Notes under the pieces: generated by a model
Database searches by the model: none
What the model saw: the letters and a program-made list of their open reading frames with translations, nothing else
What the model was told of the DNA's origin: nothing
Part shown: positions 15,498-51,449 of the stretch, one piece after another
How positions within the stretch are numbered: position 1 is the first letter of the stretch
Layout: the number at the start of each line of letters is the position of its first letter
NCBI RefSeq assembly: GCF_010093345.1
Contig: NZ_PDWT01000001.1
Location: forward strand, 1,116,001 to 1,180,000
Length of the DNA: 64,000 bases
Direction of reading: 5' to 3'
From: Pseudoxanthomonas yeongjuensis
Lineage (GTDB): Bacteria > Pseudomonadota > Gammaproteobacteria > Xanthomonadales > Xanthomonadaceae
Made by a program: the position numbers and the translations under genes

Positions 15498-16263
15498 GAC
15501 CTTGCGCGAACAGCAGTTCCAGATGGCCGCGCACTTGCGCGATCCCGGCGTCAATCCGCCGCCACCGGGTATCGAGGATCGCCGCCTGGCGATCTATCGC
15601 GAACTGTTCTTCAACAATATCGAGGGCCTGCTGGCCGGCAATTTCCCGGTCATCCGCAAGACCCTGGGCGAGCAGTGCTGGCGCAAGCTGGTGCGCGGGT
15701 TCTACGCGCATCACCGCAGCCATACCCCATTGTTCGCCGAGATCGGTCGCGAGTTCATCCGCTTCCTGCAGGAGCGCGCGCAAGCCGGGACCGACGATCC
15801 CCCTTGGCTGGCGGAGATGGCGCATTACGAATGGGTCGAGCTGGGCCTGCAGATCAACGACGATGAAGTCCCCGCGCATCAGGCTGATGGCGTTCTGCTG
15901 GCCGGCATTCCAGTGCTCTCGCCCACCGCCTGGGCCCTGGCCTACACCTGGCCGGTGCCGCATATCGGTCCCGATTACCAGCCCACGACTCCACCTGAAG
16001 CGCCGACCCTGGTCCTGGTGCGGCGCGACCGGCAATACGAAATCCGTTTCGCCGAAATCTCGCCGCTGGTGTATCGGTTGATCGAGATCCTGCGCGGCGG
16101 CGAATTGAGCGGACGCCAGGCGCTGGAGCAACTGGCGCGGGAAGCCGGCGTCGCCGACCCCGGGTCGGGTCCGGGGCAGGCTCTGCCCGCCTTCATCGAA
16201 CAAGGCGCAGCCATGCTCCAGCGCATGCACGAGGAAGGCACGATCCTGGGCACCGCCTTGTAG
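15490..16263 (+). CDS. bufC: DUF2063 partner protein (BufC/HvfC), putative precursor-recognition subunit
   Basis: 257 residues from the ATG at 15490, which overlaps the DUF692 stop by eight bases. The N-terminal DUF2063 domain shows [47 protein letters not shown] and [24 protein letters not shown]. The C-terminal half (about 165-250) resembles a winged-helix/PqqD-like recognition element of the kind that presents a leader peptide in RiPP systems. It works with the DUF692 enzyme on the precursor (family knowledge). Its TAG stop is supplied by the first bases of the GTAGGAGCGGGC repeat that follows. No DoxX-type fourth gene is present. Confidence 0.9.
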
Positions 16264-16432
16264 GAGCGGGCCTTGCCCGCGATGCTCTTGGCTTTGTCCC
16301 CCAAGGGGACTTCCTTTGGTGCGTAGATCCGAGCTTGCTCGGATGCTTTTCGCGAAGATCAAGAGCATCCGAGCAAGCTCGGATCTACAAGACAAGGGCG
16401 AAAGCATCGCGGGCAAGGCCCGCTCCTACAGG
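16260..16432. repeat. Nested palindromic repeats after the bufferin operon
   Basis: An outer inverted pair GTAGGAGCGGGCCTTGCCCG ... CGGGCAAGGCCCGCTCCTAC (16260-16288 and 16404-16430) encloses an inner inverted pair of the GATCCGAGCTTGCTCGGATG family (16323-16388), as at 31-97. One repeat inserted inside another. No ORF of interest. Confidence 0.8.
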
Positions 16433-20116: not shown

Positions 20117-20190
20117 GTAGGAGCGGGCCTTGCCCGCGATGCTCTTCGACCAGATCGCGGAAGAGCATCGCGGGCAAGGCCCGCTCCTAC
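20117..20190. repeat. Inverted repeat, GTAGGAGCGGGCCTTGCCCGCGATG family
   Basis: Complete hairpin with arms GTAGGAGCGGGCCTTGCCCG and its complement, between rnr and rlmB on the same transcript. The prevalent repeat family here; other copies at 16260-16432, 32928-33002 and a half copy at 51421-51449. Confidence 0.85.
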
Positions 20191-22754: not shown

Positions 22755-22841
22755 GCCCAGGTGGCGGAATTGGTAGACGCACTAGCTTCAGGTGCTAGCG
22801 GGGGCAACTTCGTGGAGGTTCGAGTCCTCTTCTGGGCACCA
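22755..22841 (+). tRNA. tRNA-Leu(CAG)
   Basis: 87 bases including an encoded CCA. The acceptor arms GCCCAGG and TCTGGGC pair (one G-T), discriminator A, D-arm TGGCGGAATTGGTAGACGCA, anticodon stem CTAGC/GCTAG with loop TTCAGGT giving anticodon CAG, a class II variable arm GGGGGCAACTTCGT, and T-loop GGTTCGAGTCC. Reads the abundant CUG Leu codon. Confidence 0.97.
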
Positions 22842-30982: not shown

Positions 30983-32671
30983 TCACAATGCCGCGTTATG
31001 CACTCCCGCAATCGCCCTGCCCGACGGATCCGCTGCACCGGCGAAGCTCGCATCCCATGCGATCGCGGCAGGCGAGGAACAGGCGATGGACTTTCCGCCG
31101 GGCACGGTCTCAGCCGCGGCCGGGGTCGGAAAGAATTGCTCGAACAGGCTGCGGTAGTAGTACGCCTCCTTGGTCAGCGGCGGATTGACCGGGAAGCGCT
31201 TGTCCGCCGCGGCCAGTTCGCGATCGCTGACCCGGGACTCGGCATGGTCCTTGAGTCCGTCGATCCAGCCATAGCCGACGCCATCGCTGAACTGCTCCTT
31301 CTGCCGCCACAGGATCGATTCGGGCAGGTAACCCTCGAATGCCGCTCGCAGGACGCCCTTCTCCATCCGCGCCCGCCCGCTGCTGGTCTTGTCGATCATC
31401 TTGTACTTGGCATCCATCCTCATCGCCACGTCCATGAACTCGCGATCCAGGAACGGCACCCGCGGCTCCACGCCCCAGGCCATCATCGACTTGTTGGCGC
31501 GCAGGCAATCGTAGTTGTAGAGCGCGTCCAGCTTGCGCACCAGCTCCTCGTGGAACTCGCGCGCGTTCGGCGCCTTGTGGAAGTAGAGATAGCCGCCGAA
31601 GATCTCGTCGGAGCCCTCGCCCGACAGCACCATCTTCACTCCCATCGCCTTGATCCGGCGCGCCAGCAGGTACATCGGCGTGGACGCGCGGATGGTGGTG
31701 ACGTCGTAGGTCTCGATGTGGCGGATCACTTCCGGCAACGCGTCCAGGCCTTCCTCGAAGGTGTATTCGAATCCATGGTGCACGGTGCCCAACGCCTCGG
31801 CCGCAATTTCGGCGGCGGCCAGGTCGGGCGAGCCCTTCAAACCGATGGCGAAGGAATGCAGGCGCGGCCACCAGGCCTCGGCCTTGTCGTCCTCCTCAAT
31901 GCGGTGGCGGGCATAACGCGCGGCCACCGCCGTCACCAGCGAGGAATCCAGCCCTCCCGACAGCAACACCCCGTAGGGCACATCGGTCATCAACTGCCTG
32001 TGCACCGCGCGCTCGAACGCCTCGCGCAGCTCTTGCGTATCGACTTCCACGCCCGCCACCGCGTCGTAGTCGCGCCACGGCCGCTGGTAATACTTCACCA
32101 GTTCGCCACTGGCGCTGTCGTAATAGTGTCCTGGCGGAAACTGGGCGACGTCGGCACAGGTATCCACCAGCGATTTCATTTCCGAAGCCACGCATAGACG
32201 GCCTTCGCGATCATGACCCCAGTACAGCGGGCATACACCCATCGGGTCGCGCGCGATCAAGGCACGGCCCGCGGCCTTGTCCCACAGCGCGAAGGCGAAG
32301 ATGCCGTTGAGCCGGTTGAGGAACGAGGCCGGCGAGTCCTCGCGGTACAGCGCGTTGATCACCTCGCAATCGGATCCGGTCAGAAATTCGTACGGCTGGG
32401 CCAGTTCCTTCTTCAGCTCGCGATGGTTGTAGATCTCGCCGTTGACGGCCAGCGCCAGCCCGCCATCGGCCGAACGCAGCGGCTGCGAACCGCCTGCCGG
32501 ATCGACGATGGCCAGGCGTTCGTGCACGAGGATCGCGCCCTCATCGATGTACACGCCGCTCCAGTCGGGGCCGCGATGGCGCTGCCGTTGCGAAAGCTCC
32601 AGCGCCTGGCGACGCAGGCCCTGCAGGTCGTCGCCCGATTGCAGGCCGAAAATGCCGAAAATGGAACACAT
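30983..32671 (-). CDS. asnB: Asparagine synthase (glutamine-hydrolysing), AsnB
   Basis: 562 residues. Cys2 (MCSIFGIFG) is the glutaminase nucleophile, so the start must be 32671; GGAG lies just upstream. The N-terminal class II amidotransferase domain is followed by the synthetase domain with the PP-loop SGGLDSSLVTAV and SGEGSDEIFGGY. Converts aspartate, glutamine and ATP to asparagine. The frame stays open for 52 codons upstream, but that stretch is the attenuator, not protein. It lies downstream of dapE on the same strand behind an Asn-rich leader ORF and terminator, which probably set its expression by asparaginyl-tRNA charging. Confidence 0.96.
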   Translation of the reverse strand: MCSIFGIFGLQSGDDLQGLRRQALELSQRQRHRGPDWSGVYIDEGAILVHERLAIVDPAGGSQPLRSADGGLALAVNGEIYNHRELKKELAQPYEFLTGSDCEVINALYREDSPASFLNRLNGIFAFALWDKAAGRALIARDPMGVCPLYWGHDREGRLCVASEMKSLVDTCADVAQFPPGHYYDSASGELVKYYQRPWRDYDAVAGVEVDTQELREAFERAVHRQLMTDVPYGVLLSGGLDSSLVTAVAARYARHRIEEDDKAEAWWPRLHSFAIGLKGSPDLAAAEIAAEALGTVHHGFEYTFEEGLDALPEVIRHIETYDVTTIRASTPMYLLARRIKAMGVKMVLSGEGSDEIFGGYLYFHKAPNAREFHEELVRKLDALYNYDCLRANKSMMAWGVEPRVPFLDREFMDVAMRMDAKYKMIDKTSSGRARMEKGVLRAAFEGYLPESILWRQKEQFSDGVGYGWIDGLKDHAESRVSDRELAAADKRFPVNPPLTKEAYYYRSLFEQFFPTPAAAETVPGGKSIACSSPAAIAWDASFAGAADPSGRAIAGVHNAAL

Positions 32672-32722
32672 GGGTAACTCCGTGGGTCGAGGTTTGAGGG
32701 GTGAGGTTCGAAAATAGGAAAC

Positions 32723-32753
32723 AAAAAAACCCGCATCTCGCGATGCGGGTTTT
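32723..32753 (-). terminator. Attenuator terminator in the asnB leader
   Basis: On the minus strand: AAAACCCGCATC, loop GCGA, GATGCGGGTTTTTTT. An intrinsic terminator placed 51 bases before the asnB start codon and 28 bases after the leader ORF stop. Its upstream arm (ACCCGCATC) is also perfectly complementary to bases inside the leader ORF. Confidence 0.88.
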
Positions 32754-32799
32754 CTGGTGATTCGGCTTGTCCTGATTCGCCTAGTCGCAGACCCGCATC
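32742..32799 (-). promoter_or_regulatory. Predicted antiterminator pairing in the asnB leader
   Basis: GATGCGGGT within codons 25-28 of the leader ORF (plus-strand 32791-32799) can pair over nine bases with ACCCGCATC, the upstream arm of the terminator (32742-32750). The two structures are mutually exclusive. A ribosome stalled on the Asn codons leaves this segment free; a ribosome at the leader stop covers it. A smaller CCGCA/TGCGG pairing between the Asn-codon region and this segment could form the pause hairpin. Confidence 0.75.
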
Positions 32800-32876
32800 G
32801 GTCGCGCACGATTATTCGTCCGCGCATTGTTGCGGCGGTTCGAATTGGCGTTGGCGAGGGCGGCTTGGCACGGCAT
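32781..32876 (-). CDS. Asn-rich leader peptide of asnB
   Basis: 31 codons, too short for most gene callers. Seven are Asn within 14 residues (NANSNRRNNARTNN), against an expected one or so; the peptide then ends RPMRVCD with the stop at 32781-32783. The layout of Asn-codon block, antiterminator segment, stop codon, then terminator hairpin with T run and asnB matches ribosome-mediated attenuators of amino-acid operons. There is no Shine-Dalgarno before the ATG; a candidate -10 seven bases upstream suggests a leaderless start. An in-frame upstream ATG exists but its extension passes through a palindromic repeat. Confidence 0.8.
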   Translation of the reverse strand: MPCQAALANANSNRRNNARTNNRARPMRVCD

Positions 32877-32882
32877 GGGAGG

Positions 32883-32912
32883 GAAACTAACCGGTTCGAG
32901 GGGTGGCTGGCA
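32883..32912 (-). promoter_or_regulatory. Candidate promoter of the asnB leader
   Basis: On the minus strand TTGCCA, 18 bases, TAGTTT, then seven bases to the leader ATG. If used, transcription would begin at or next to the ATG. The -35 is good (five of six), the -10 weak (three of six). Confidence 0.4.
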
Positions 32913-32927
32913 AGCCCTCCTCGCCCC

Positions 32928-33002
32928 GTAGGAGCGGGCCTTGCCCGCGAGGCTCTTCATCAGGACCACGGGCAAAGGCATCGCGGGCAAGGCCCGCTCC
33001 TA
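32928..33002. repeat. Inverted repeat, GTAGGAGCGGGCCTTGCCCG family, overlapping the dapE stop
   Basis: Full hairpin with the common arms and a longer loop. The TAG that ends dapE (minus strand) is the TAG of GTAGGAGC, so the repeat supplies the stop codon. Confidence 0.8.
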
Positions 33003-34142
33003 CGACAGCAGACGCTCCAGCAGCCTGCGATACAGACTTGGCAATGCCTCCAGGTCGGCCACGGACACGTTTTCATCCACCTTGTGGATGCTCGCGTTCA
33101 CCGGACCCACCTCGATGCATTGCGCGCCCAGCGGCGCGATGAAACGCGCGTCGGAAGTGCCGCCCGCGGTGCTTTCCTCGGGCGCCATGCCGGCGAATCC
33201 GCCCAGCACTTCCCGCGCAACGGCGCGCAGGCGGCCTTCGGGGGTGTAGAACGGTTCGCCGCCGCGATGCCAGTGCAGATCGTATTCCAGGCCGTGCCGA
33301 TCCAGCACGGCGCCGATCTCGTTCTCCAGTTGCGCCGCATTCCAGTGCGGGTTGTAGCGCAGGTTGAACAGCACCTTCGCCTCACCGGGAATCACGTTGT
33401 TCGCACCGGTGCCGGCGTTGAAGTTGGAAACCTGCAGGCTGGTCGGCGGGAAGGTTTCGTAGCCTTCGTCCCAGCGCCGCGCCACCAGCTCGGCCAGCGC
33501 CGGCAAGGCCTGGTGGATCGGATTGCGCGCCTTGTCCGGATAGGCCACATGCCCCTGCACGCCTTTCAGTGTCAGGGTCGCCGACAAGGTGCCGCGACGG
33601 CCGACGCGCAGCAGGTCGCCGAGCTTGTGCGTGGACGAGGGTTCGCCAGTGATGCACCAGTCGATGGCCTGGCCGCGCTCGCGGAAGGTATCGGCGACCC
33701 GGCGCACGCCATCGATGGCATCGCCCTCCTCGTCTGAAGTGAGCAACAGGGCCACGGTGCCGGGATGCTGCGGATGGGCGGCGACGAACTGCTCCAGTGC
33801 GATCACGAATGCCGCGACACTGCCTTTCATGTCCGCCGCGCCGCGCCCGAAGAGGACGCCCTCGCGGACCGTCGGCTCGAAGGGATCGCTGTTCCAGGCC
33901 TCGGCCGGGCCGGAGGGCACCACGTCGGTGTGGCCGAGCAGGACCAGCACCGGCGAGCCGCTCCCATGCACGGCCCACAGGTTGTCCACTTCGCCGAAAC
34001 GCAGGTGCTCGCAGTCGAAGCCTGCGCGCTGCAGTCGTTCGGCGATCAGCGGCTGGCAACCCGCGTCGTCCGGCGTGACCGAGCGGCGGCGGATCAACTC
34101 GCTGGCCAGATCGAGGATATCGCTCATGAAGGCGTCGCTCAT
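33000..34142 (-). CDS. dapE: Succinyl-diaminopimelate desuccinylase
   Basis: 380 residues; dinuclear zinc M20 peptidase-fold enzyme that makes LL-diaminopimelate for lysine and peptidoglycan. Metal and catalytic motifs: [40 protein letters not shown] (catalytic Glu pair) and a C-terminal His in the segment following [15 protein letters not shown]. The start may be 34142 or the Met five codons later. Overlaps yffB by four bases, so dapD-yffB-dapE form one unit. Confidence 0.95.
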
Positions 34143-51420: not shown

Positions 51421-51449
51421 AGGCATCGCGGGCAAGGCCCGCTCCTACA
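51421..51449. repeat. Half copy of the GTAGGAGCGGGC repeat
   Basis: GGCATCGCGGGCAAGGCCCGCTCCTACAG; only the right arm is intact, with a degenerate left part (GCGGGAGCGGCGTCCCGCCGCG at about 51370). Confidence 0.7.

Follow-up and report, generated by a model that had tools for sequence, protein, structure and literature searches.

The stretch studied here, hereafter the window, comprises 64,000 nucleotides (nt) of the Pseudoxanthomonas yeongjuensis genome (contig NZ_PDWT01000001.1, positions 1,116,001 to 1,180,000). We focused on the region upstream of asnB, which is transcribed from the minus strand. Coordinates of the features are collected in Table 1. The asnB product, P0001, matches NCBIfam NF006949 (asparagine synthase B) with 875 bits, against a cut-off of 499, and also Pfam PF00733 and PF13537. 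On the same strand, dapE (NCBIfam TIGR01246) lies upstream and ends at 33000. Between the two genes are a short open reading frame (ORF), translated as MPCQAALANANSNRRNNARTNNRARPMRVCD, and an intrinsic terminator. Half of the codons in a 14-codon section of the ORF specify Asn. Near its end, CGATGCGGGT (segment B) shows 10-nt complementarity to ACCCGCATCG (segment C) in the upstream arm of the terminator. A preliminary description of the DNA had listed the Asn-rich ORF, the complementary tail, the terminator with its seven T and the asparagine synthetase gene. All four are present at the locus. The same description interpreted the region as a ribosome-mediated transcription attenuator, controlling asnB according to the charging of tRNA-Asn.

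Table 1. Features of the asnB upstream region, numbered by position in the window.
Feature	Position	Strand	Remark
Leader peptide ORF, 31 codons plus stop, seven Asn codons	32781..32876	-	Read from sequence
Control region, leader Asn codons 9, 11, 13, 16, 17, 21 and 22 (7/14)	32811..32852	-	
Segment B, CGATGCGGGT, antiterminator 5' arm, inside leader ORF	32791..32800	-	Pairs with 32750-32741
Segment C, ACCCGCATCG, common to antiterminator and terminator	32741..32750	-	
Segment D, GATGCGGGT, terminator 3' arm	32729..32737	-	
Intrinsic terminator hairpin, loop GCGA	32755-32724	-	
Seven-T run at the intrinsic terminator	32723..32729	-	
Shine-Dalgarno-like GGAG 5' of asnB	32678..32681	-	
asnB, glutamine-hydrolysing asparagine synthetase, presumed controlled gene	30983..32671	-	
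Predicted promoter -35 hexamer, TTGCCA	32908..32913	-	Pattern in 82/83 loci
Predicted promoter -10 hexamer, TAGTTT, 18 nt past the -35 and 7 nt 5' of the leader ATG	32884..32889	-	
Predicted transcription start, at or adjoining the A of the leader ATG	32876	-	From the -10-to-start gaps

We asked how often such features occur by chance. Short ORFs of 8 to 70 residues were collected from the window (826 stop codons; 387 plus strand, 439 minus strand). The leader is the sole ORF with four or more Asn in 12 codons; its peak is six and that of the runner-up is three. Three terminator-like sites were found between 32600 and 33050 on both strands, versus 0.3 expected from shuffled sequences. Two overlap the leader hairpin on the minus strand and the third is its plus-strand image. 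The loci of 38 relatives (558 strand-kb) were also scanned beyond the 350 nt above asnB. Seven ORFs scored at least five Asn there, of which five are extended versions of the same leader and two are on the opposite strand of locus L009. Five further ORFs scored four.

If the preliminary description were correct, Asn enrichment and complementary segments should recur in related genomes. Both are retained, the latter weakly in two loci considered below. A scan of public genomes provided 80 asnB loci, 79 with upstream sequence (L083 is without), and from these 38 leader loci were selected by eye. The leader was defined by at least three Asn in 12 codons with a terminator behind. By this definition it is present in 39 of the 79 loci: all 38 selected, 36 of them with at least four Asn, and L070. 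Hence, among the 41 loci outside the selection only L070 combines leader and terminator, and four, L070 included, have at least four Asn in 12 codons. The selected loci carry 14 kinds of label, and 37 of them are named Lysobacterales or Xanthomonadales, including Xanthomonas, Stenotrophomonas, Lysobacter, Luteimonas, Thermomonas, Arenimonas, Rhodanobacter, Dyella, Frateuria and Fulvimonas. The other, L010, is a metagenome-assembled genome (MAG) of Pseudomonadota.

An evenly drawn sample of 151 genomes from the order gave a similar picture. Here, asnB of this type (E 1e-150 or better) is found in 90 genomes. Leader and terminator accompany it in 23 of 24 genomes of the window's family (f1) and, in two sister families, in 19 of 20 (f12) and 3 of 3 (f2), making 45 of 47; at least four Asn are present in 22, 18 and 3, respectively. 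The Asn cluster is retained over the three families, while the remaining peptide diverges. Within the window's genus, genome G032 and a Pseudoxanthomonas record (L048) have an identical 31-residue leader. The exceptions in f1 and f12, G091 and G067, are without leader and their asnB is only 65-66% identical. Also without leader are L080, labelled Lysobacteraceae (asnB 64% identical), and L017, L024 and L042, which bear other labels (75-82%). L080 and G091 have a similar ORF upstream, which suggests that asnB is a replaced gene in these sequences.

In five other families of the order, leader and terminator were found in 2 of 43 genomes, one with at least four Asn. The latter, G082 of family f7 (L144, C49:28254-28764), has a 4-Asn leader and a GCCCGC terminator core. 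With an unchanged layout and a tail that pairs with the terminator arm at -14.0 kcal/mol, it probably represents the genuine element in a fourth family. The second candidate, G007, has three Asn and is weak, with a tail pairing of -7.0. Among 46 asnB loci of other Pseudomonadota, seven have at least four Asn, in regions of 36-46% G+C. A hairpin follows the Asn-rich ORF in L211, L219 and L238 (at least four Asn) and in L220 (three Asn); their tails pair weakly (-4.6 to -10.7). L070 (positions 2040-2185), on a MAG contig labelled Rubrivirga, has four Asn in eight codons, a strong terminator, a tail pairing of -16.3 kcal/mol and an asnB 63% identical. It is possibly an independent Asn attenuator. 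The element thus appears common in three families of the order and probably occurs in a fourth. Beyond these, candidates are not convincing, save perhaps L070.

To compare the alternative structures we used 83 loci: 45 genomes of the order and the 38 named loci. Some belong to the same species, and 77 distinct sequences were aligned. The terminator is behind the leader in all 83. Segment C is shared by helices B:C and C:D, so antiterminator and terminator are mutually exclusive. The terminator helix is paired in 92.4% of alignment cells. For the antiterminator helix, 78.5% of pairs in the 77 loci are standard, versus 70.3% (standard deviation 0.8) after shuffling, and none of 500 shuffles was as high. 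Sliding the helix by 1-3 columns left at most 42.9% paired. The covariation score of B:C was 0.185 versus 0.100. Pairing energies were calculated between each tail and its own arm. Across 66 loci these averaged -18.7 kcal/mol, against -15.9 for permuted arms, with 0 of 5000 permutations as low. Own leader tails averaged -19.6 and codon-shuffled tails -13.9, with p <=0.05 in 43 of 72 loci. The clearest compensatory change is in L028 and its relative L106 (genome G136). Here the leader reads CCG CAG GCC where neighbours have CCG CGG GCC, and the 5' arm of the terminator reads GGCCTGC where others have GGCCCGC. B:C is thereby preserved as A-U, whereas the terminator tolerates U-G. Hence, the change tracks the antiterminator.

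The position of the promoter goes beyond the preliminary description. In 82 of 83 loci, an in-frame leader start is preceded by a TTGC -35 element, a spacer of 16-19 nt and a -10 hexamer ending 5-8 nt before it, versus 2 of 1002 control ATG or GTG codons of the same regions. Spacers are 17 nt in 56 loci, 18 in 25 and 19 in one. Gaps are 6 nt in 44 loci, 7 in 30, 5 in five and 8 in three. The leader starts with ATG in 80 of the 82 and GTG in two. An earlier, stricter pattern was found in 53 of 83 loci and at 3 of 1002 controls. A general promoter scan had no match in the region; its rule needs four of six positions in the -10 box and TAGTTT has three. Because the -10 box ends so close to the start codon, the leader mRNA is probably leaderless. 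Among the 53 strict-pattern loci, 14 have a Shine-Dalgarno (SD)-like motif in the 16 nt preceding the leader start; in none of the 14 is it inside the gap between -10 box and start. Before asnB, such a motif is present in 79 of 83 loci. Sinorhizobium meliloti belongs to another class of Proteobacteria. Its trpL leader RNA begins with its ATG, as described in a passage of PMC7298713, and is a precedent for the predicted start.

A promoter and a terminator could by themselves delimit a transcript of ~155 nt. The Asn-rich ORF might then be a stand-alone gene for a small RNA or small protein, with asnB transcribed from its own downstream promoter and not subject to control by read-through. The attenuated leader of S. 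meliloti, rnTrpL/peTrpL, does act in trans according to sections of PMC7298713. Three observations would be left unexplained: that the enriched codon matches the product of the downstream gene, that leader tail and terminator arm covary, and that the leader is missing in G091 and G067, which have a divergent asnB. We regard such a gene as improbable.

Attenuation also makes demands on ribosome position. The ribosome footprint extends ~12 nt beyond the codon, according to section 4 of PMC4833913. With this value, all 83 loci offer two or more Asn positions where stalling would keep B accessible. Median distances are 13 nt from the start of the last Asn codon to B and 6 nt from the end of B to the leader stop codon. 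When the RNA left free by a ribosome at the stop codon was folded, the terminator formed in every one of the 83 loci. There is a hint of a pause or protector hairpin in the Asn region, with a mean z of -0.86 over 72 segments and 46% of them below -1. AAT makes up 261 of the 534 Asn codons in the 83 leaders, versus 50 of the 325 in asnB itself at the 38 named loci.

For a tRNA-based sensor to report on asparagine, cells must charge tRNA-Asn with the free amino acid. We therefore consider the source of Asn-tRNA. In the three families, all 45 leader-bearing genomes have asnS above the cut-off, while gatB (E <=1e-60) and asnA (E <=1e-30) were found in none of the 45. With asparaginyl-tRNA synthetase (AsnRS) present, and gatB and asnA not found, tRNA-Asn charging should report free asparagine. 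Among the 151 genomes of the order, this type of asnB (90 genomes) and gatB (46 genomes, 45 above the cut-off) never co-occur. This suggests two exclusive routes to Asn-tRNA in the order, since the two genes share no genome in the sample.

Several results weigh against attenuation or blunt the evidence for it. Two of the five covariation measures for the antiterminator are not above shuffles. For the whole structure, double-change pairs were as numerous in 258 of 500 shuffles and further pair types in 489 of 500. In 29 of 72 loci the tail does not reach p <=0.05 relative to codon-shuffled tails. L036 and L038 have a weak B:C helix of -12.5 kcal/mol, with p values of 0.35 and 0.28. Shuffles and permutations alike retain the relatedness of the loci. 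Substitutions between close leader tails, at 45, 60 and 67 for the three codon positions (66 synonymous, 106 not), are only mildly coding-like. Once at the stop codon, a ribosome would cover half or more of B in only 63 of the 83 loci. With the ribosome stalled, folding of the free RNA gave at least five B:C pairs in 82 of 83 loci, and codon-shuffled tails reached this number in 83% of cases; this count was dropped as evidence because shuffled tails nearly match it. For the predicted leaderless start, the pattern with 82 of 83 matches was defined after the sites had been inspected. In addition, the promoter-like site of G082, judged by eye, is ~27 nt from the leader ATG, so that this copy would not be leaderless.

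On balance, the element very probably controls asnB by ribosome-mediated transcription attenuation, with the charging of tRNA-Asn as its signal. The preliminary interpretation is supported by the Asn enrichment, the complementary segments and the AsnRS route. Comparison of sequences shows conservation, covarying alternative pairings, geometry, promoter position and AsnRS route; translation of the leader, stalling, termination and a response to asparagine we infer. Transcription would begin at, or adjoining, the leader AUG and a ribosome would translate the Asn-rich leader close behind RNA polymerase. With ample Asn-tRNA, the ribosome would reach the stop codon and cover or disturb segment B. 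C and D would then form the terminator and a short RNA of ~155 nt would be made. When asparagine is scarce, the ribosome would stall on an Asn codon and B would remain free. Free B would pair with C before D is made, allowing polymerase to continue into asnB.

We also lean towards a more specific proposal, with less assurance. The attenuator may be of an undescribed kind that reads Asn-tRNA and is leaderless by design over the three families. With transcripts starting at the leader AUG, ribosomes would load on the nascent 5' end without an SD sequence and be coupled to polymerase from the first codon. Each terminated round would release a leaderless mini-mRNA of ~155 nt. The Asn/Arg-rich peptide that it encodes would possibly act in trans, as for rnTrpL/peTrpL.

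Firmicutes control asparagine genes by T-boxes, which sense tRNA-Asn charging upstream of the genes. In a T-box the RNA binds the tRNA directly, without a leader peptide. A T-box, a riboswitch or a protein-bound RNA could likewise sense asparagine or tRNA-Asn in our element, leaving the ORF untranslated. PMC2965389 describes genes at which control has switched between a T-box or riboswitch and a leader peptide. No Rfam 15 family matched the element at gathering score in the window or six relatives, in contrast to what a T-box would give; the only match in the window was a tRNA at 22755-22838. As a positive control, Rfam His_leader had no match at E <=1 in the window's genome and so gave no evidence of attenuation at other operons there. 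What is conserved in the element are segments B, C and D and, in a single frame, the Asn codons; the consensus fold contains the terminator only. Direct sensing by the RNA is hence very improbable. Least probable of all is that the terminator, although downstream of dapE on the same strand, belongs to that gene, with the Asn-rich ORF a product of chance or low sequence complexity, given the promoter-like site between dapE and terminator, the Asn cluster retained over three families in an otherwise divergent peptide and the single Asn-rich ORF among 826 in the window.

We place the element among ribosome-mediated attenuators because it has most of their defining features that were examined, with mixed results for two, the hiding of B at the stop codon and the pause or protector hairpin; the amino acid would be new, and the start is predicted to be leaderless. 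Like the his, trp, leu, thr, ilv and pheA attenuators of Proteobacteria, it combines a short leader ORF bearing codons for the amino acid that is made with an intrinsic terminator before the structural gene, and its antiterminator and terminator exclude each other. It differs from them in the amino acid and gene (asparagine and asnB), in having B inside the leader ORF and in its predicted leaderless start; support for the hairpin is partial here. PMC1183508, which lists those operons, has neither 'asn' nor 'asparagine' in its text. In S. meliloti, attenuation at trpL releases the small RNA rnTrpL, as stated in excerpts of PMC7298713, for another amino acid and gene than those of the asnB element. 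His leader peptides before the hisS and hisZ paralogues of bacilli, covered in part of PMC2965389, were similarly found by comparing upstream regions, but concern histidine and Firmicutes. An asparagine leader-peptide attenuator was absent from the open full-text matches listed, which mostly leave out subscription literature, so an earlier comparative prediction is possible. The main text of PMC7694677 is without asnB, asparagine, attenuat and leader. Searches of five leader peptides against Pfam and NCBIfam gave no family at E <=10, with HMMER filters that drop most matches above ~0.1.

If attenuation operates as proposed, asparagine joins the amino acids sensed in this way, in families that include Xanthomonas, Stenotrophomonas, Lysobacter and Rhodanobacter. 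The attenuator could account for tuning of asnB in organisms that make Asn-tRNA via AsnRS. The predicted leaderless start would offer a natural, conserved system for studying how ribosomes on leaderless mRNA keep pace with RNA polymerase. Any small RNA mapped 5' of asnB in such bacteria may be the attenuated leader.

A covariance model of the element, R1, gave 33 matches at E <=10 in the window's genome. The leader ranked top (4.4e-21) and the second match (4.0e-7) covers model positions 47-126 only. In a sample of 369 genomes of the class, R1 matched at least 233 at E <=0.1. Among the matches listed, the four at 8.6e-16 or better are leaders from genomes of the window's family, and many weaker ones span only the terminator end of the model. 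Eighteen R1 loci (L175-L192) were examined. L175 and L178-L181 are known leaders, and the remaining 13 have no ORF of 8-60 residues with more than four Asn in 12 codons. L184 (genome G187, C443:1600-1679) contains a short ORF rich in Phe, MRERVNRIAVFVNFNFFITFFVFFWW, which is probably a leader of the pheA type.

Two further observations concern the surroundings of asnB. Other asparagine-synthase-like sequences, 33-48% identical, lie ~105 kb off in the window's genome (G000:C11:1038013-1041622). Directly upstream of the promoter (32927-33004) is a 27-nt inverted repeat, presumably of the repetitive extragenic palindromic (REP) type, which it resembles. Others are at 16260-16429, 20117-20190 and 51426-51448, and the 23-nt core, GTAGGAGCGGGCCTTGCCCGCGA, has seven mismatch-free copies in the window where none is expected.

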